Origin: Nitrospirota bacterium
GTDB lineage: Bacteria > Nitrospirota > Nitrospiria > Nitrospirales > Nitrospiraceae
Direction: 5' to 3'
DNA: 64,000 nt
Assembly (NCBI GenBank): GCA_040757595.1
Contig: JBFLWP010000004.1
Span: 62,001 to 126,000, forward strand
Under the pieces are notes generated by a model, which did no database searches, was not told the origin of the DNA, and saw only the letters and a list, made by a program, of their open reading frames with translations. Below are positions 48,936-63,743 of this stretch, in pieces (within the stretch, counting starts at the first letter, position 1; every line of letters starts with the position of its first letter). Position numbers and translations under genes: made by a program.

Positions 48936-51119
48936 TCAAGTCGGCGCACGGCCCTCCCGGTCCGATGCCTCATCTTTCGCACCGGGGCGCGATCCACCAG
49001 GCGCCTCCTCCAGCACCAGGACCGGCAGCCGGATGACGAAGGTGGCTCCCCGCCCCAAGTCGCTCTCGACCGTCAAGGTCCCTCCCAGCTCCGTCACGAT
49101 GCGGTGGCAGATCGCCAACCCCAACCCGGTTCCCTCGCCGATCGGCTTGGTCGTGAAAAAGGGCTCGAAGATCCGGGCCTGGTTCTCCGGCGTGATGCCG
49201 GGCCCGTCGTCGCCGACGCGAACCTCGACCCACCCGCCTTCACGACCCGACACGGGGAAGGGGCGAAGGGGGGACGCGGCGATTTCTCGATCACCCTGTC
49301 GCTCCTTCTCCGCGTCTCCGCGTCCCCGCGTCCCCGCGTCGTCGGCCAGAGAAGCGGACACCGTCAGCGTGCCGCGTCCGTGCGCGGTGGCCATGGCCTG
49401 CCGGGCGTTCGTCATCAGGTTGAGCAGGACCTGCGTGAGATCCTGGGGGTCGGCGAGGACGCGCGGCAGGTCCGGCGGCAGGTTCGTGCGGACGGCGATC
49501 TGATGGATGCTCAGGTCGTTGGCCATCAGTTCCAGCGTCCTGGCGATCAGGCCGGGGACGTGGCACACCTCGCGGCGGCCGCCGGCGGTGCGGGCCACCC
49601 CGAGAAACCGGCTCACGATCGCCGAGGCCCGGTGGGTCGCTTCGTAGATCGCCGCCAGATCCTCCTGCAGCCCCTCGGTGGTCGCCCGATCCAGCCGGCT
49701 CCTCGCCAACTGCGCGTGTCCGCTGATGATGAACAACGGGTTGTTGAGCTCGTGGGCGACGCCGCCGAGGAGCGTGCCCAGCGCCGCCAGCTTGTCCGCC
49801 TGCCGGAGCTGCTGCTCCATCCGCTTGCGCTCGGTCTGGTCCTCGATGACGACCACGCGCTCGCCGCTCTCCGGCTCTCCGATGCAGCTCACGCTTAACC
49901 GGAAGAGATGCCGCCTGTCGGCGGGCATCAGGCATTCCACCTCGACCTCGCCGGAGCCTGCCCGGTCCAACCGGACCGCCCCCAGGACCTCCTCGATCCT
50001 GTCCGCGGGAAAAGCCTCCCCGATCGGGCGCCCGACGGTCTCTTCGGGAGACCGGTCGAAGGTCCGGTAGAACGTCCGGTTGGCGAACTGGACGGTGAAA
50101 TCCTTGCCCAGGCGCACGACCGACACGGGGAGGGAGGTCACGGTCGCGCGGTACTGCTCCTCCAGCACCTGCAGCGCCTTGGTCCGCTCGGCGACCCGCT
50201 GCTCCAGCCGCAGGTTGGCTTCCCGGAGTTCCTCCTGCTGCGCCTCGACGAGCTTCTTGAGCTCTTTGAACCGGTCGGTGAGGTGTCCGATTTCGTCTCC
50301 CCGCGGCGCAAAGACCGGCGCGGAGCCTCCTCCGCCCGCGCCGCCGGCCGGCTCCATCAAGCCGGCCAGCAGGGCCAGGGGTCGCGAGATGGTCCGCCTG
50401 GTCCCCAGCGCGATCACCCCCAACACCAGCAGACAGAGGCCGGCCCCGCCGGCCACCGTGAAGAGGAGGTCCCGACGGCTCTCCTGCACGTACCGCCCTA
50501 TGGGCAGCACGATCTCGAGGCCGCCCATCACGTCGTGAAGCTTGAAGTCGCGTCTGGGACTCTGCGGATGCGCGTTGTGACAATCCACGCACGACTGGGC
50601 GGAAGCCCGGTCCGCCCGCAGCACGCGCAGCACGGGACGGCCGGCCATGACCTCGGTCCTGACGTACTCGCCGGACGGCTGGGCGGCCAGATAGGCGAAG
50701 GCCTCGCGCTGGAACTCGTCCGTCAGCCCCATGGCCGGGTTGATCGGCCAGGGGCTGACCAAGCGCGCCGCGAACCCCTCCGGATTGGCGCCGGTGAGAA
50801 TCTCGGAGACCTCGCGCAACAGCGTGGCCGGCAGCGGCAGGCGGCCGTGTACCTGCCGGTAGTCGGCCCCGAACGTCCCGCCCAGCTCCTGGACCTTGGG
50901 CACGACTACGGAGGCGTAATATTCCCGCTCCGCCATGATCTGGTTGGACAGGCTCCTGGCCCGCTGCGTCAGCTTCTCCTGCAGGTTGGCCTCATTCCGC
51001 ACCCAGACCGCCCAGGCCGCCAGGCTCGCCACGAGGATGACGGGCGGGACCGTGAACACCATCAGCTTGGTGCCGATCCGCCACCCGTCGGGCGGACGTA
51101 TGAGTTGCAGGAGCTTCAC
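48936..51119 (-). CDS. Sensor histidine kinase with c-type-haem (DUF3365) periplasmic domain
   Basis: 727 aa. Membrane segment about 18-40, periplasmic DUF3365-like domain (45-215) with a c-haem motif CVDCH (177-181) inside SCVDCHNAHPQSPRRDFKLHDVMGGLEIVLPIGRYV, second membrane segment about 218-240, a HAMP-like region, then PAS (320-440), HisKA (LLGGVAHELNNPLFIISGHAQ) and HATPase_c (DDGPGI, FEPFFTTKPIGEGTGLGLAICHRIV). No receiver. The kinase loop holds an in-frame word-repeat insert (DAGTRGRGDAEKERQGDREI). Probably a redox or gas sensor. Its ATG overlaps the stop of the upstream kinase (ATGA). Confidence 0.9.
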   Translation of the reverse strand: MKLLQLIRPPDGWRIGTKLMVFTVPPVILVASLAAWAVWVRNEANLQEKLTQRARSLSNQIMAEREYYASVVVPKVQELGGTFGADYRQVHGRLPLPATLLREVSEILTGANPEGFAARLVSPWPINPAMGLTDEFQREAFAYLAAQPSGEYVRTEVMAGRPVLRVLRADRASAQSCVDCHNAHPQSPRRDFKLHDVMGGLEIVLPIGRYVQESRRDLLFTVAGGAGLCLLVLGVIALGTRRTISRPLALLAGLMEPAGGAGGGGSAPVFAPRGDEIGHLTDRFKELKKLVEAQQEELREANLRLEQRVAERTKALQVLEEQYRATVTSLPVSVVRLGKDFTVQFANRTFYRTFDRSPEETVGRPIGEAFPADRIEEVLGAVRLDRAGSGEVEVECLMPADRRHLFRLSVSCIGEPESGERVVVIEDQTERKRMEQQLRQADKLAALGTLLGGVAHELNNPLFIISGHAQLARSRLDRATTEGLQEDLAAIYEATHRASAIVSRFLGVARTAGGRREVCHVPGLIARTLELMANDLSIHQIAVRTNLPPDLPRVLADPQDLTQVLLNLMTNARQAMATAHGRGTLTVSASLADDAGTRGRGDAEKERQGDREIAASPLRPFPVSGREGGWVEVRVGDDGPGITPENQARIFEPFFTTKPIGEGTGLGLAICHRIVTELGGTLTVESDLGRGATFVIRLPVLVLEEAPGGSRPGAKDEASDREGRAPT
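49251..49341. repeat. Quasi-palindromic word-repeat element inside the haem-sensor kinase gene, word CGCGTCCC
   Basis: Right arm 49303-49341 (CTCCGCGTCTCCGCGTCC and onward) and left arm 49251-49280 (ACACGGGGAAGGGGCGAAG and onward). It lies in the kinase ATPase domain between GRGTLTVSASL and GGWVEVRVGDDGPG; the MEDS kinase in this window lacks it there. Confidence 0.72.
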
Positions 51120-54241: not shown

Positions 54242-55927
54242 TTACGACTCCGTTGCGATGAAGCTCGGGACGAGCCGAACCGGATGGTAGTCCCGCTTGG
54301 ATCGCGCCAGGCTCGGGAGCCCCGAGTCGTCCATGGTGTTGACGAACTCGTAGCCGAGGGCGGCCGTCTCGCGGCAAGACTCCCGAAAGAGAAACTGGGC
54401 CAGCCCGGGGAGCGTCCGGTCTGCGACTTCCAGCAGGACACAAAACACGGACGGGGACCGTTCGAAGCCGAAGGTATAGGCGCGCACCACGCCGTCCACC
54501 CGTGCGACGCGACCGACGAGCCCCAGCGCGCGATGGTGCGCGAAGGCTTCGCGATGGGCCGCTTCCGCGTCGGCCAGCATCTGCCGCGCGACGGGGTCAT
54601 GGGTCGCCCGGCGCTTCTGCTCCGTCCATTGCCGGAACAGGGCCAGGCACTCTTCCCGAAGCCCCTCCTCGTAAGGTCCGTACCGGACCCGTCTGGTCCG
54701 GACGACCCGGTTGCAGGCGGCGCGCTGCGACTTGTACCGATCCCCCTTGAGACCGGCCAGGTCGGCGGTCCGGTAGAGATAGTCCGGGTCCTTGGGCTTC
54801 ACCGGATAGCCCAGCGACTCGAAGACCGGCTTCAGTTCTTCCGACACGTTCTCGACTCGGGTGACGGCCGAGCCGCGATTCCTTTTCCGCATGAATTTGA
54901 AACATGCGGACAGAATGGGCGCAAGGTTCGAAGCGCTAGGCCAGAGGAACGAATCACACCCCGTGCCTCGCGCCTCGCGCCCCGTGCCTAACTCAGCAGG
55001 CAGCGGCGGGAGGGGCATGTAGAACCCGTCCCCATATTCAGCGAACAGGCAAACCTGGCCGGCGATCTCGGTCCACGAATAGGTCAGCAGCGACCGCCAG
55101 ATGAAATGGGGCGCGAAGGCGTAGGCGGCGAGCGGCGTTGGAAAGGACCGCATCGCCTGCTCGAACCGGGGCCGGTCGGCGAGTTCAAGAGGATGCAATG
55201 TGATGGGTGATGGGTGATGGGTGATGGGTGAAGAAGGAGGAACGCTCTTGACGCCGGGGACCCGTCGCTCCGAGAAATGCAACGGGTGCCCTTCACGCCT
55301 CACGAGCCGTTCGGTGAGCTTCGGGAGCGGCTTGACGACGACGACATCCTCCTGGAACCGGCCGACGAGCCGTGGATGTCCGGCGAAGATGTCCCGCGTC
55401 TCGTCCCGCTCGATCAGGTCCGCGATCCGATCGGCGTACGCCTCAAGCTCGGACACGGGGCCAGAGGCACGAGGCAAGGGGGAAAACTCGGTCCCCTCGC
55501 CCCCCACCCCTCGCCCCTCGCCTGTTTGCAAGAAAGGACACTTGGTATCCCAGCCCAGCACCACTTGGCTCCGGTCGGCGCTCCACATGACCGCCAGCGG
55601 ATAGAGCTGGCAGTCGAGCGGGCGCGCCTCGTAGATGCGGCACCGGGAAGCGGAGTGATCGAACGCCGGGCAGAGGTAGCCTTCCCCGACCGGATTGGGG
55701 ACGAGCGCCACCTGACAGCCGGCAGGGTCGGGAAACTGGGACGGCCCGACCCCGTGGGCGACTGCCCGCTGGATCTCCTCCCGGGTGAAGTACGGGCGCA
55801 GGAAACTGTCCGGCTCCGGGAAGCGGCAGCAGACATCGCACTGGAAACAGGCCCGGCTGGGCACGTATTGCGGCAGCGGAATCACGGGGATGAGCGTGCC
55901 CGGCCGCTTCGAGTCCGTCTGATTCAT
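54242..55927 (-). CDS. Fusion: YkgJ-type Cys-rich domain and DUF2156/GNAT-like domain, carrying three word-repeat inserts
   Basis: 561 aa. N-terminal YkgJ domain with CDVCCRFPEP, GYLCPAFD, CRIYEARPLDCQLYPL (Cys cluster for zinc or Fe-S). The C-terminal half from LADRPRFEQAM is a DUF2156 (LPG-synthase-like/GNAT) domain with AYAFAPHFIWRSLLTYSWTEIAGQVCLFAEYGDGFYMPLPPL, and FVNTMDDSGLPSLARSKRDYHP near the end. Three low-complexity stretches (GEGRGVGGEGTEFSPLPRAS, SSPITHHPSPITLHP, GTGREARGTGCDSFL) are the translations of word-repeat elements in frame. Function unknown; aminoacyl-phospholipid synthase-like activity is only a fold-based guess. Confidence 0.78.
   Translation of the reverse strand: MNQTDSKRPGTLIPVIPLPQYVPSRACFQCDVCCRFPEPDSFLRPYFTREEIQRAVAHGVGPSQFPDPAGCQVALVPNPVGEGYLCPAFDHSASRCRIYEARPLDCQLYPLAVMWSADRSQVVLGWDTKCPFLQTGEGRGVGGEGTEFSPLPRASGPVSELEAYADRIADLIERDETRDIFAGHPRLVGRFQEDVVVVKPLPKLTERLVRREGHPLHFSERRVPGVKSVPPSSPITHHPSPITLHPLELADRPRFEQAMRSFPTPLAAYAFAPHFIWRSLLTYSWTEIAGQVCLFAEYGDGFYMPLPPLPAELGTGREARGTGCDSFLWPSASNLAPILSACFKFMRKRNRGSAVTRVENVSEELKPVFESLGYPVKPKDPDYLYRTADLAGLKGDRYKSQRAACNRVVRTRRVRYGPYEEGLREECLALFRQWTEQKRRATHDPVARQMLADAEAAHREAFAHHRALGLVGRVARVDGVVRAYTFGFERSPSVFCVLLEVADRTLPGLAQFLFRESCRETAALGYEFVNTMDDSGLPSLARSKRDYHPVRLVPSFIATES
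54921..54988. repeat. Word-repeat element in the YkgJ-DUF2156 gene (first)
   Basis: Right arm 54958-54988 (ACCCCGTGCCTCGCGCCTCG and onward), faint left arm 54921-54945. Encodes GTGREARGTG and neighbours. Confidence 0.65.
55200..55231. repeat. GTGATGG tandem tract in the YkgJ-DUF2156 gene (second)
   Basis: Four perfect GTGATGG units and GTGA, the same 28-nt tract as at 884-911. No clear right arm. Encodes SPITHHPSPITLH. Confidence 0.8.
55454..55524. repeat. Word-repeat element in the YkgJ-DUF2156 gene (third)
   Basis: Left arm 55454-55482 (ACGGGGCCAGAGGCACGAGG and onward), right arm 55492-55523 (TCCCCTCGCCCCCCACCCCTC and onward), loop about 9 nt. Encodes GEGRGVGGEGTEFSPLPRAS. Confidence 0.78.
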
Positions 55928-57002: not shown

Positions 57003-57109
57003 GCGGGAAACAATAATGGTAGACACGCAGCGAGCACCGCTCGCCCATCGGCGATCCCCTTGTTTGGATGTCGGACCCCATGTTACGATCAGCCCCGTCC
57101 GCGGACGGA

Positions 57110-57153
57110 TCGTCACCCGTCATTCGTCGTGCGAAGACGGGTGACGCGTGACC
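57110..57153. repeat. Quasi-palindromic word-repeat element, word GACGGGTGACG
   Basis: Left arm 57110-57130 (CGTCACCCGTCATTCGTCGTG), right arm 57134-57153 (AGACGGGTGACGCGTGAC). Shared block GACGGGTGACG; the loop is a few nt. It lies just before the ATP-grasp-like gene and contains a possible GTG start (57141). Confidence 0.72.
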
Positions 57154-57167
57154 CAGACGACCGGCTG

Positions 57168-58739
57168 ATGGCTCTCGCGCGCGATCTCACACACCCGACC
57201 AGGAACGCCGCCGACCTGCACCGGTGCGTCACCGTCCGGGACTCCCTCGTCCGCGACGGCCTGTATGACGCCGCAGGAGACGGCCAGGGGGGGGCAAGCA
57301 CCCCGGTCGCGACCCGCTGGCGCATCGCTCCCGGTCCGTTCCTCCTCTCGCCCGCCGAGGCGCGCTTCTTCCACACGCTGGGGAACCATCTCCTGGCCTT
57401 TTACCGGGCGCTGAACCGCCTGTACCAGGAGAGCGTCCGGGGCACGCAGCCAGCCTGGGTGGCGGCTTACCTGGACCAGGGAAAGCCGGAGTCGCTCGTG
57501 GCCTACAGCCGCATGAAGCGGTTCAAGGACCTGCTGCCCGCCGTGATCCGGCCGGACATCATCCCGACGAACGAGGGGCCGACCGGACACCGGATGGCGA
57601 TCACGGAGCTGGACTCGGTCCCCGGGGGCATCGGACTGACCGGCGCCCTCGGAAGGGTCTACGGTCAATGGTCAGTGGCCAGTGGTCAGTGCAAAGAAAA
57701 TCAAACCGAATCTCTCACCACCACCCACCGATCGCCGCCCACCGACCACGAAACTTGGGAGATCGTCGGCGGCGCGGACGGGATGGTCCGGGGATTCGCC
57801 GCCATGGTGCGCCACCAGACGGCGGGCCGGGGCGGGTGCGTGGGGATCGTTGTATCGGAGGAGGGCAAGGATTACCGGCCGGAGATGACCTGGGTGGCGG
57901 CCCGGCTGCGAGAGGAGGGCCTCGACGCCCACTGTGTGGAGCCACGGGAGATCCGGTTCACGGAAGAGACGCTGGTCCTGGATCGGGAAGGGTCGGCCAG
58001 GCCGGTTGCCCTCGTCTACCGGTTCTTCGAGCTGTTCGACCTGCCCAACGTGCCCAAGGCCGAGCTCATCATGTACAGCGCCAAGAAGGAGCGGACGGTC
58101 GTCACTCCTCCGTTCAAGCCGGCTCTGGAGGAAAAGCTGGCCTTCGCCCTGCTCCACCACCCGGTGCTGGCGCCCTTCTGGTCACGGGAGCTGGGCGAGG
58201 AGTCCTTCGCGCTGCTGAGCGACCTGGTGCCGAGAACCTGGATCCTGGACCCCCGGCCCCTGCCGCCCTCGGCCGTGATTCCCAACCTGTCCGTGGCCGG
58301 CCGCGCCGTGGCCGACTGGCGAGACCTGGCCATCGCCTCGCAGAAGGACCGCCGGTACGCGGTGAAGCCGTCCGGATTCTCCGAGCTCGCCTGGGGCAGC
58401 CGGGGCGTGTCCGTCGGGCACGACCTGTCCCAGTCGGAGTGGGCGGACGTCCTGGACCAGGCGCTGGCTTCCTTTCCCACGACCCCGTACGTCCTGCAGG
58501 AATTCCACAAGGGCCGCCAGTTCGACCTCAGCTACCACGACGAGCGCACGGACGAGGTCGTCCCGATGGCCGGGCGCGCGCGCCTGTCCCCCTACTACTT
58601 CGTCACCGGCGACCGGGCGGAGCTGGCCGGCATCCTGGCCACCGTCTGTCCGCTGGACAAGAAGCTCATTCACGGGATGCGGGACGCGATCATGGTCCCC
58701 TGCGCGGTCTCAACCGGCGGGCACGAGGTACGAGGCTAG
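57168..58739 (+). CDS. Hypothetical protein, possible ATP-grasp fold, with word-repeat insert
   Basis: 523 aa from ATG at 57168. Not clearly recognised. Features: GPFLLSPAEARFFHTLGNHLLAFYRALNRLYQ, PDIIPTNEGPTGHRMAITELDSVPGGIGLTG, RYAVKPSGFSELAWGSRGVSVGHDL (Lys and Gly-rich as in ATP-grasp nucleotide loops) and VLQEFHKGRQFDLSYHDE. Related proteins are sometimes annotated as ATP-grasp or glutathione-synthase-like. Residues about 166-195 come from an in-frame word-repeat element. The last residues (GHEVRG) come from another element. No metabolic link to neighbours is visible. Confidence 0.7.
   Translation: MALARDLTHPTRNAADLHRCVTVRDSLVRDGLYDAAGDGQGGASTPVATRWRIAPGPFLLSPAEARFFHTLGNHLLAFYRALNRLYQESVRGTQPAWVAAYLDQGKPESLVAYSRMKRFKDLLPAVIRPDIIPTNEGPTGHRMAITELDSVPGGIGLTGALGRVYGQWSVASGQCKENQTESLTTTHRSPPTDHETWEIVGGADGMVRGFAAMVRHQTAGRGGCVGIVVSEEGKDYRPEMTWVAARLREEGLDAHCVEPREIRFTEETLVLDREGSARPVALVYRFFELFDLPNVPKAELIMYSAKKERTVVTPPFKPALEEKLAFALLHHPVLAPFWSRELGEESFALLSDLVPRTWILDPRPLPPSAVIPNLSVAGRAVADWRDLAIASQKDRRYAVKPSGFSELAWGSRGVSVGHDLSQSEWADVLDQALASFPTTPYVLQEFHKGRQFDLSYHDERTDEVVPMAGRARLSPYYFVTGDRAELAGILATVCPLDKKLIHGMRDAIMVPCAVSTGGHEVRG
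57662..57750. repeat. Word-repeat element inside the ATP-grasp-like gene, word GGTCAGTG
   Basis: Left arm 57662-57691 (GGTCAATGGTCAGTGGCC and onward), degenerate right arm 57714-57750 (TCACCACCACCCACCG and onward), loop about 22 nt. In frame; encodes GQWSVASGQCKENQTES and neighbours. Confidence 0.72.
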
Positions 58740-62891: not shown

Positions 62892-62972
62892 CAAGGGGTA
62901 CGAGGCTAGAGGCAATGGGCCTTCAATCCGAAAAGAAATCCCCTCGCCCCTCGCCCCTGGCCTCTCGCCCCA
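62892..62972. repeat. Quasi-palindromic word-repeat element at the start of the next glycosyltransferase
   Basis: Left arm 62892-62914 (CAAGGGGTACGAGGCTAGAG and onward), right arm 62940-62972 (CCCCTCGCCCCTCGCCCC and onward). The ATG of the gene (62915) is in the loop, so the first residues (MGLQSEKKSPRPSPLASRPK) are from the element. Confidence 0.78.
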
Positions 62973-63736
62973 AGGCATCAGATGCGGCCTTGGTGATCTT
63001 CGGCAAGGCGCCGATTCCCGGCCAGGTGAAGACCCGCCTCTGCCCGCCCCTGACCGGGGACGAGGCCGCCACGCTCCAGGGCACCCTCGTGCTCGACGTC
63101 GTCGAGCGGAGCCGGGCCGTCGAGCGGCAATTGGACCGGTTCCTCGCCTGCTCGCCGTCGCGCGAGCATCCGTTCTTCAAGGTCATGGAGGGCCGTCACG
63201 GGGTGAGGCTCCTCGATCAGGTCGGTCCCGACGTCGGCGCCCGCATGGCCCAGGTGTTTGAAGAGCTTTTCGGGTTGGGCTATCGAAAGGTGGTGATGGT
63301 CGGGACTGACGTGCCGACGCTGCAGCCTTCTTCGTTGCTGGAGGCCCACAAGCGGCTGGACGACCATGACCTCGTCCTCGGCCCGGCCCAGGACGGAGGC
63401 TATTTCCTCATCGGGCTGACGAGGCCGACCCCGGATCTCTTCCAGGACATCCCCTGGTCCACCGACCAGGTTCGAGCCCTGACGTTGAAAAAAGCAGAAG
63501 CGCTGGGCCTGAAGGTCGCCCAGTTGGCGATGGACCGGGACCTGGACACGGTCGAGGACCTGCTCGCTTTCGCGCAGGAGGCCGGGCTGGAGGCACGAGG
63601 CCCGAGGGGAGGAGCAAGGGAATCCGCCATTCACCCCGCGCCCCGCGCCCCGCGCCTGTCAGCCCGCACCGCCGGCGTGCTCAGGATGCTGGCCGAGCGG
63701 CTGCGATCCAGAACGGACGTGAGGCGTGAGACGTAA
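62915..63736 (+). CDS. TIGR04282/DUF2064 glycosyltransferase-like protein
   Basis: 273 aa. The core starts at ALVIFGKAPIPGQVKTRLCPPLTGDEAA (the KTRL box), then YRKVVMVGTDVPTLQPSSLLEAHKRLDDHDLVLGPAQDGGYFLIGL, WSTDQV, and RDLDTVEDLLAFAQ. This is rSAM/selenodomain-associated transferase 1, usually paired with TIGR04283 as here. Both ends are extended by word-repeat elements: residues 1-20, and about 226-250 (ARGPRGGARESAIHPAPRAP). The true functional chain is probably about residues 22-225. Confidence 0.86.
   Translation: MGLQSEKKSPRPSPLASRPKASDAALVIFGKAPIPGQVKTRLCPPLTGDEAATLQGTLVLDVVERSRAVERQLDRFLACSPSREHPFFKVMEGRHGVRLLDQVGPDVGARMAQVFEELFGLGYRKVVMVGTDVPTLQPSSLLEAHKRLDDHDLVLGPAQDGGYFLIGLTRPTPDLFQDIPWSTDQVRALTLKKAEALGLKVAQLAMDRDLDTVEDLLAFAQEAGLEARGPRGGARESAIHPAPRAPRLSARTAGVLRMLAERLRSRTDVRRET
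63588..63659. repeat. Quasi-palindromic word-repeat element inside the end of the DUF2064 gene
   Basis: Left arm 63588-63620 (TGGAGGCACGAGGCCCGAG and onward), right arm 63631-63659 (TCACCCCGCGCCCCGCGCC and onward). The loop is about 10 nt. Confidence 0.78.
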
Positions 63737-63743
63737 GACGTGG
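63717..63743. repeat. Half element, word GTGAGACGTAAGACGT
   Basis: GACGTGAGGCGTGAGACGTAAG and onward, the same word as the element in the M28 gene, but without a right arm. It covers the DUF2064 stop codon. Confidence 0.6.

Follow-up and report, generated by a model that had tools for sequence, protein, structure and literature searches.

Heptad hairpins read in frame at three sites of one Nitrospirota gene: a shared architecture with changing words

A two-domain gene and its three inserts

In this study, we analysed a window (the whole stretch of 64,000 nt) in which an intact open reading frame of 561 codons on the minus strand, 54242-55927, contains three inserts built from short repeated words. 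The encoded protein combines a YkgJ-type domain (Pfam CxxCxxCC, aa 26-112, E 6e-8) with a DUF2156 domain (Pfam LPG_synthase_C, aa 334-558, E 2e-23), so that the conserved domains are indeed intact around the inserts, as the initial annotation had stated; an NCBIfam search with the host protein returned no family. The nearest named homologues place the organism, which is uncultured, in the Nitrospira family. The following features are discussed, with the evidence for each in brackets:

54242-55927, minus strand: host gene, YkgJ-type CxxCxxCC domain plus LPG_synthase_C/DUF2156 domain, 561 aa (ORF listing, Pfam, homologues, dN/dS)
55454-55522, minus strand: insert 1, site S1, about aa 135-158 (sequence reading, genome matches, AlphaFold2 pLDDT below 50 at aa 136-156)
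55200-55304, minus strand: insert 2, site S2, about aa 208-243, at the domain junction (sequence reading, word matches, AlphaFold2 pLDDT below 50 at aa 214-238)
55250-55291, minus strand: nested dispersed palindromic repeat inside insert 2, core ACCCGTTGCATTTCTCGGAGCGACGGGTCCCC (genome matches)
54920-54988, minus strand: insert 3, site S3, about aa 314-336 (sequence reading, array and mate scans, AlphaFold2 pLDDT below 50 at aa 315-326)
57663-57750 (end approximate), plus strand: insert of the same kind in the neighbouring gene (ORF 57060-58739), with arm GGTCAATGGTCAGTGGCCAGTGGTCAGTG, loop and degenerate inverted arm (array and mate scans)

The initial annotation had described three word-repeat arrays from two families, all read in frame. 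This description could be confirmed with respect to the sites, the frame and the families, with GGCGAGG/GGCGCGA-type words in inserts 1 and 3 and GTGATGG-type words in insert 2. The host locus was picked for its repeats, so that the repeat density there is not representative, and its three period-7 arrays lie far above chance, with a mean of 0.0065 and never three arrays in 2000 codon shuffles. Chance origin of the arrays is ruled out by these codon shuffles together with order-3 Markov shuffles. The description of the build and the extent needed revision, however, as every insert proved to consist of two mutually inverted arms instead of one array, and insert 2 had been delimited incompletely, its true span of 55200-55304 including the nested palindrome.

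In insert 1, the first arm (GGCGAGG GGCGAGG GGTGGGG GGCGAGG GG, 55493-55522, minus strand) is followed by a loop of 11 nt (55482-55492) and an inverted arm of four heptads (CCCCTTG CCTCGTG CCTCTGG CCCCGTG, 55454-55481, minus strand). Insert 3 consists of a first arm GGCACGG GGCGCGA GGCGCGA GGCACGG GG (54959-54988), an 11-nt loop and a degenerate inverted four-heptad arm (54920-54947). In insert 2, the short arm GTGAGGC GTGAAGG (CGTGAGGCGTGAAGG on the minus strand) at 55290-55304 and the opposite arm, 4.6 copies of TCACCCA at 55200-55231, are parted by a spacer holding the nested palindrome. The latter matches another genomic copy at 90%, and a search of the genome with it gave nine matches at E <= 0.05, of which two overlap at a single place. 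In several places, palindromes of this type (GGGGACCCGTTGC...GGGTCCCC; 55250-55291, L230, L231) adjoin TCAC heptads or are embedded in them, as though they preferred such surroundings. Folded alone, the three inserts are unremarkable compared to mononucleotide shuffles (z -0.6, -2.5 and -1.1), and the case for inverted arms therefore rests on the genome-wide mate test described below. Upon informal inspection by eye, no GTAG/GAGG-type tag was seen at the hairpin foot of the three inserts.

A homologue of the host gene is present in 44 of 61 genomes searched, the window's own counted, and dN/dS at its conserved codons amounts to 0.13-0.39 in seven pairs of relatives, so that the gene can be considered functional and under purifying selection. 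AlphaFold2 modelling from an alignment of 40 sequences gave a mean pLDDT of 80.6, with values below 50 only at aa 1-14, 136-156, 214-238 and 315-326, which are the N-terminus and the three inserts; all three insert sites are predicted to be disordered linkers. CxxCxxCC and LPG_synthase_C are encoded by separate neighbouring ORFs in some of the order-level relatives, as well as in a further family of the phylum, which identifies S2 as a domain-fusion junction, and in more distant homologues the link at this position spans about 8 residues. Peptides spanning the inserts would lie, for example, around SPITHHPSPITLHPLELADR. Peptides such as SPITHHPSPIT and EGRGVGGEG are repeat products and should not be taken by annotators for conserved motifs.

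Dispersal of heptad hairpins through the genome

In 464 kb of this genome, comprising the window and 20 further pieces, we found 47 degenerate period-7 arrays against 5 in order-3 Markov shuffles. Periods of 5, 8, 10 and 11 occurred at chance level, while 14 and 21 were raised as multiples of 7 and multiples of three were mildly up, in line with codon structure. A complementary mate (at least 14/18) within 100 nt accompanied 28 of the 47 arrays (60%), compared to 1.3% in a control with flanks taken from elsewhere. In the common architecture, two arms of about four 7-nt words each, inverted relative to one another, flank a loop of roughly 4-60 nt, and the words differ between copies within one genome. 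Counting GTNA heptads per arm by a simple rule, we obtained 23 arms with two words, 10 with three, 34 with four, 14 with five and a single one with six. The four-word arm is preferred, unlike the falling series expected from slippage alone, and the short GTGA-type arms may be remnants.

This distribution bears on the question of whether the arrays arose in place by slippage from linker sequence, unrelated to other genomic repeats, which we regard as extremely improbable. Heptad copy number does change, since the relatives L010 and L019 (dS 0.24) share their S3 element save for an indel of 21 nt, corresponding to three heptads, and the part of PMC4679880 that cites Mrazek 2007 reports heptanucleotides as the commonest among long simple repeats in bacteria. 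Slippage alone, however, yields neither inverted mates nor the four-word peak, nor words that occur genome-wide.

Relatives of the whole insert 1, nearly full length at 70-75% identity, occur at five other places of the genome, and an additional partial one at 81% (L232-L237 loci). The arm words of insert 2 occur at more than 40 genomic places, and about ten inspected pairs have their arms in common while the loops look unrelated. By gene calls that are greedy and crude, 26 of the 47 arrays lie inside ORFs and 21 outside; as these ORFs cover 94% of the DNA, arrays are depleted in coding DNA. Many copies sit between a stop codon and the next start codon. For a comparison of element density across relatives, the 20-kb pieces are too thin.

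The insert of the neighbouring gene is likewise read in frame (GQWSVASGQ...), and its position is filled by different inserts in L002, L023, L070, L080, L137 and others. A further ORF, 62915-63736 (273 aa), carries arrays at 62938-62965 and 63631-63658 and a third one at its stop codon (63718-63741) and is possibly multiply invaded. An array of 8-nt units, CCGCGTCC, is located at 49307-49340 and resembles CCGCGTCT, an array with the same unit length within the L002 insert at S2; word length may vary between 7 and 8.

The frequent position behind stop codons, an architecture that is conserved though words change, and the annotation of similarly built Geobacter elements as putative global regulator sites (PMC2700814) would be in line with heptad hairpins acting as functional RNA or DNA sites, bound by protein or shaping mRNA, with intragenic copies kept for this role. 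With no conserved word, a sequence-specific binder is hard to imagine, however. An Rfam scan of the window found tRNAs only and no family for the elements, and intragenic arms tolerate disruption, as in insert 2 with its one shortened arm and nested repeat. We therefore consider such a role improbable.

Shared sites, changing words and the reading frame

Alignment with homologues, as proposed in the initial annotation, revealed wildly variable stretches at S1, S2 and S3, and a rarer fourth variable site, S0, after AVMW in L006, L012 and perhaps L013. At S0 of L006, a hairpin of another type (CTCACCCCAGCCCTCTCC...GGGAGAGGGG) splits the AVMW-EVVLGW region, in frame. Within the clade of the window, 16 homologues carry an insert at S2, 12 at S3 and 5 at S1. 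The homologues L018 and L022 are embedded in this insert-bearing clade and keep the gene with the sites empty; aligned homologues outside the clade lack the inserts, the more distant ones having empty or short sites. Equivalent sequence at these positions in unrelated phyla, which would have refuted the initial annotation, did not turn up in the loci covered, the 80 best public ones being titled Nitrospira or Nitrospirota almost throughout, with one Nitrosospira. The initial annotation had not foreseen what we observed in family-level relatives, namely elements of this kind at identical positions but spelled with other words.

The build of four words, loop and four words recurs at many occupied sites across relatives, spelled GGCAATC/ATTGCCC in L004, GGCGAGA/CTTGCCC in L002, CGTGAAG/CGCCTTA in L003, GGTTCGA/CCCCGTA in L007 and GCGTGAC/CCCGTCA in L010. 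Between L003 and L007, two members of one genus (dS 0.53), 6-mer similarity is only 0.06 at S2 and 0.05 at S3; the inserts of L004, L008 and L012, also of one genus, mostly differ likewise, and words are lost within genus g5. The S2 inserts of L005 and L016 harbour a nested repeat of another sort, CCTTCGACAGGCTCAGG. Within one genome, the words of S1, S2 and S3 are shared only slightly above chance (p 0.035). Own arms pair better than species-swapped arms (permutation p 0.03 for S1, 0.001 for S2 and 0.01 for S3), a significant but modest signal, as mismatches within heptads weaken the energies of the folded chimeras; both arms consequently tend to change together.

On the homologue tree, several deep forks of which are weak or open, at least 5 occupancy changes are required at S1, 4 at S2 and 5 at S3. 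A very close relative with an empty site was not found among the aligned homologues and the insertion event was not observed, so that the direction of change is taken from the tree. No target-site duplication is evident in the site alignment, which holds no close pair of empty and occupied sites.

The reading frame leaves a distinct trace on these elements. As 7 and 3 have no common factor, TGA falls in frame once per three words in an arm of GTGANNN words, whatever the frame. Across relatives, the host gene yielded eight left arms of the GTGA type, six of them at S2 and two at S3. Their in-frame slot reads TTA or TCA in 8/8, while out-of-frame slots are still TGA in 18/22, with 89% of such slots being TGA in the genome baseline (Fisher p 5e-8 vs baseline). 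It should be noted that only intact ORFs entered this comparison, in which in-frame TGA has to be missing. What the comparison adds is the regularity of the arms outside this slot, which marks them as ordinary elements altered just where the code demands it. The short arm of insert 2 lacks its third word, on which the in-frame slot would fall, and the nested palindrome begins at this point. Arms of the GGCGAGG type contain no TGA and pass unaltered. Judged from the sequences, the TTA/TCA pattern argues that the inserts are translated.

The initial annotation had offered two readings, tolerance of in-frame inserts between domains or their positive use as linkers. Tolerance is well supported by the predicted disorder of the sites, by homologues outside the insert-bearing clade that do without inserts, and by flanking domains under purifying selection, with only the frame and stop avoidance conserved in the inserts. 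Positive use does not find such support, as the encoded peptides are wholly different between relatives at the same site and no peptide sequence is kept. A version in which repeat-encoded disordered peptides tune domain spacing, with length selected and letters free to drift, would agree with occupancy in most clade members, with the location of insert 2 at the domain junction and with the similar peptide lengths that hairpin-sized inserts give. It is nonetheless decidedly improbable in our assessment, given that L018 and L022 keep the gene with empty sites, that the link of distant homologues at S2 is so short and that the peptides have no sequence in common; moreover, the same kind of element resides outside genes and in the neighbouring gene, so that occupancy needs no reason at the protein level. 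Lasting occupancy could still be a sign of useful inserts, and a weak role of insert length in the linkers is conceivable.

Turnover of the elements and relation to known repeats

On the basis of the architecture and dispersal of the elements, their reading in frame with avoidance of stops, the predicted disorder and the sharing of sites under word turnover, all of which are shown above, we propose that the inserts are probably tolerated members of a genome-wide population of hairpin repeats, which form disordered linkers and turn over at fixed permissive sites; as such they would be neutral or selfish. In this model, three protein loops, two of them surface linkers and one the fusion junction of once-separate proteins, would accept almost any peptide, which would allow three inserts to persist in the host gene, and selection on the inserts would mainly keep the frame open. 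Occupied sites would stay filled while the element is swapped for other words, on a scale of about 0.25-0.9 synonymous substitutions per site. Turnover might proceed by recombination and replication errors at hairpins, including allele exchange between relatives, heptad slippage and template switching.

Such exchange is seen in Nitrospira at an intergenic site just behind the stop codon of the neighbouring gene (loci L080-L111, at ~1200 in locus coordinates). Here, flanks that are 90-96% identical enclose unrelated elements (L108/L111, L097/L109, L091/L097), while the same element is found in flanks only 81-88% identical (L109 and L081, L097 and L080, L091 and L086). This mismatch of element and flank indicates that cassettes of roughly 120-170 nt are exchanged whole between lineages, for which homologous recombination within the conserved flanks would be the simplest route. 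At S2, L010 carries a perfect 11-bp inverted copy absent from its sister L019, a single case suggestive of template switching, a process that can make and maintain hairpins (PMC8794818). We tentatively and with low confidence attribute turnover to recombination and hairpin-associated replication errors acting without a dedicated transposase; an enzyme of some other kind is possible.

Mobilisation by a transposase, in the manner of REP/REPIN or MITE palindromes, would have a trans-acting protein copy whole elements, also into genes. Multi-copy hairpins that are often intergenic, the relatives of the whole insert 1 at five other places and three Y1-type transposase matches in the genome of the window speak for such a process. 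Intragenic elements are, however, also present in genomes in which no Y1_Tnp match was obtained, namely G018 (100% complete), G004 (95%), G023 and G033, there is no single consensus, and words vary freely. When one intergenic element was searched in 175 family genomes, it was found whole in two only, its arms matched widely and its loop was restricted to its own locus, which fits poorly with simple copy-and-paste of whole elements. We thus consider mobilisation of this kind unlikely. Y1_Tnp was rejected as the mobiliser on account of its inconsistent presence among element-bearing genomes, and RAYT transposases are not required.

We further considered an element class whose architecture is inherited at fixed sites and whose two arms would receive new words jointly through an unrecognised process, a possibility that we regard as unlikely. 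If true, the agent would be an architecture-reading enzyme or a hairpin-driven cycle of replication and recombination, and genes with permissive loops would be exposed too, at the sole cost of dodging stop codons.

The classic example of palindromes that form part of proteins is provided by the palindromic elements of Rickettsia, described by Ogata et al. in Science in 2000 (cited in PMC2635572). These are reportedly short palindromes of consensus families residing in protein-coding genes and read as protein. The elements reported here resemble them as a kind, being palindromic repeats read through in frame in an intact gene, and differ in that the architecture is kept without a recognisable sequence consensus. 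In build they are closest to elements of Geobacter metallireducens, about four tandem repeats of 7 nt (or 8 nt), some classes of which are paired on opposite strands at variable distance (PMC2700814). This likeness, which also covers intragenic and intergenic positions, is one of architecture only: the Geobacter elements have one consensus word per class and are read as regulatory (PMC2700814), in contrast to the many words per genome observed here, which give way to others from species to species at a given site, and to the in-frame use as linkers. By analogy, the elements would work like those of Rickettsia and be built like those of Geobacter, while lacking the consensus of both the Rickettsia and the REP families.

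TAACTGA repeats of Beggiatoaceae and cyanobacterial STRR are dispersed tandem 7-nt units, mostly intergenic with some in ORFs; TAACTGA is a single fixed word, with related heptamers rarely repeated and only one indirect repeat seen (PMC4679880). The present elements share with STRR/LSSR heptamer repeats the tandem 7-nt units above chance and differ from these and from TAACTGA by their many words and regular inverted mates. REP/REPIN are stem-loop repeats of small size and high copy number that frequently lie at the ends of genes (PMC3116915, PMC3733652, PMC12306157), with REPs of 14-40 nt in E. coli that have a common consensus and seldom overlap coding regions (PMC12306157). Compared to these, the elements of the window are longer, built of heptads and variable in words, with three in-frame copies in the host gene and one in the neighbouring gene, and their occurrence extends to genomes without Y1 transposase. 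Terminal inverted repeats, as in MITEs, are present, though the arms make up most of the element. In mitochondria of Nematomorpha, inverted repeats are read through in functional protein genes, with both arms encoding conserved protein (PMC6649704), unlike the disordered, unconserved linker encoded by both arms here. Our literature search found no description of heptad hairpins in Nitrospirota.

Intragenic repeats of bacteria are usually discussed as fixed selfish families, as in Rickettsia, or as phase-variable simple repeats. The gene described here offers a natural series instead, in which corresponding linkers of over a dozen relatives carry one hairpin build in different spelling. Three questions thereby become testable, namely by what means a repeat preserves its shape while its sequence changes, how repeats are filtered by coding constraint, as in the replacement of in-frame TGA by TTA or TCA, and whether structural DNA repeats give rise to new disordered protein linkers.
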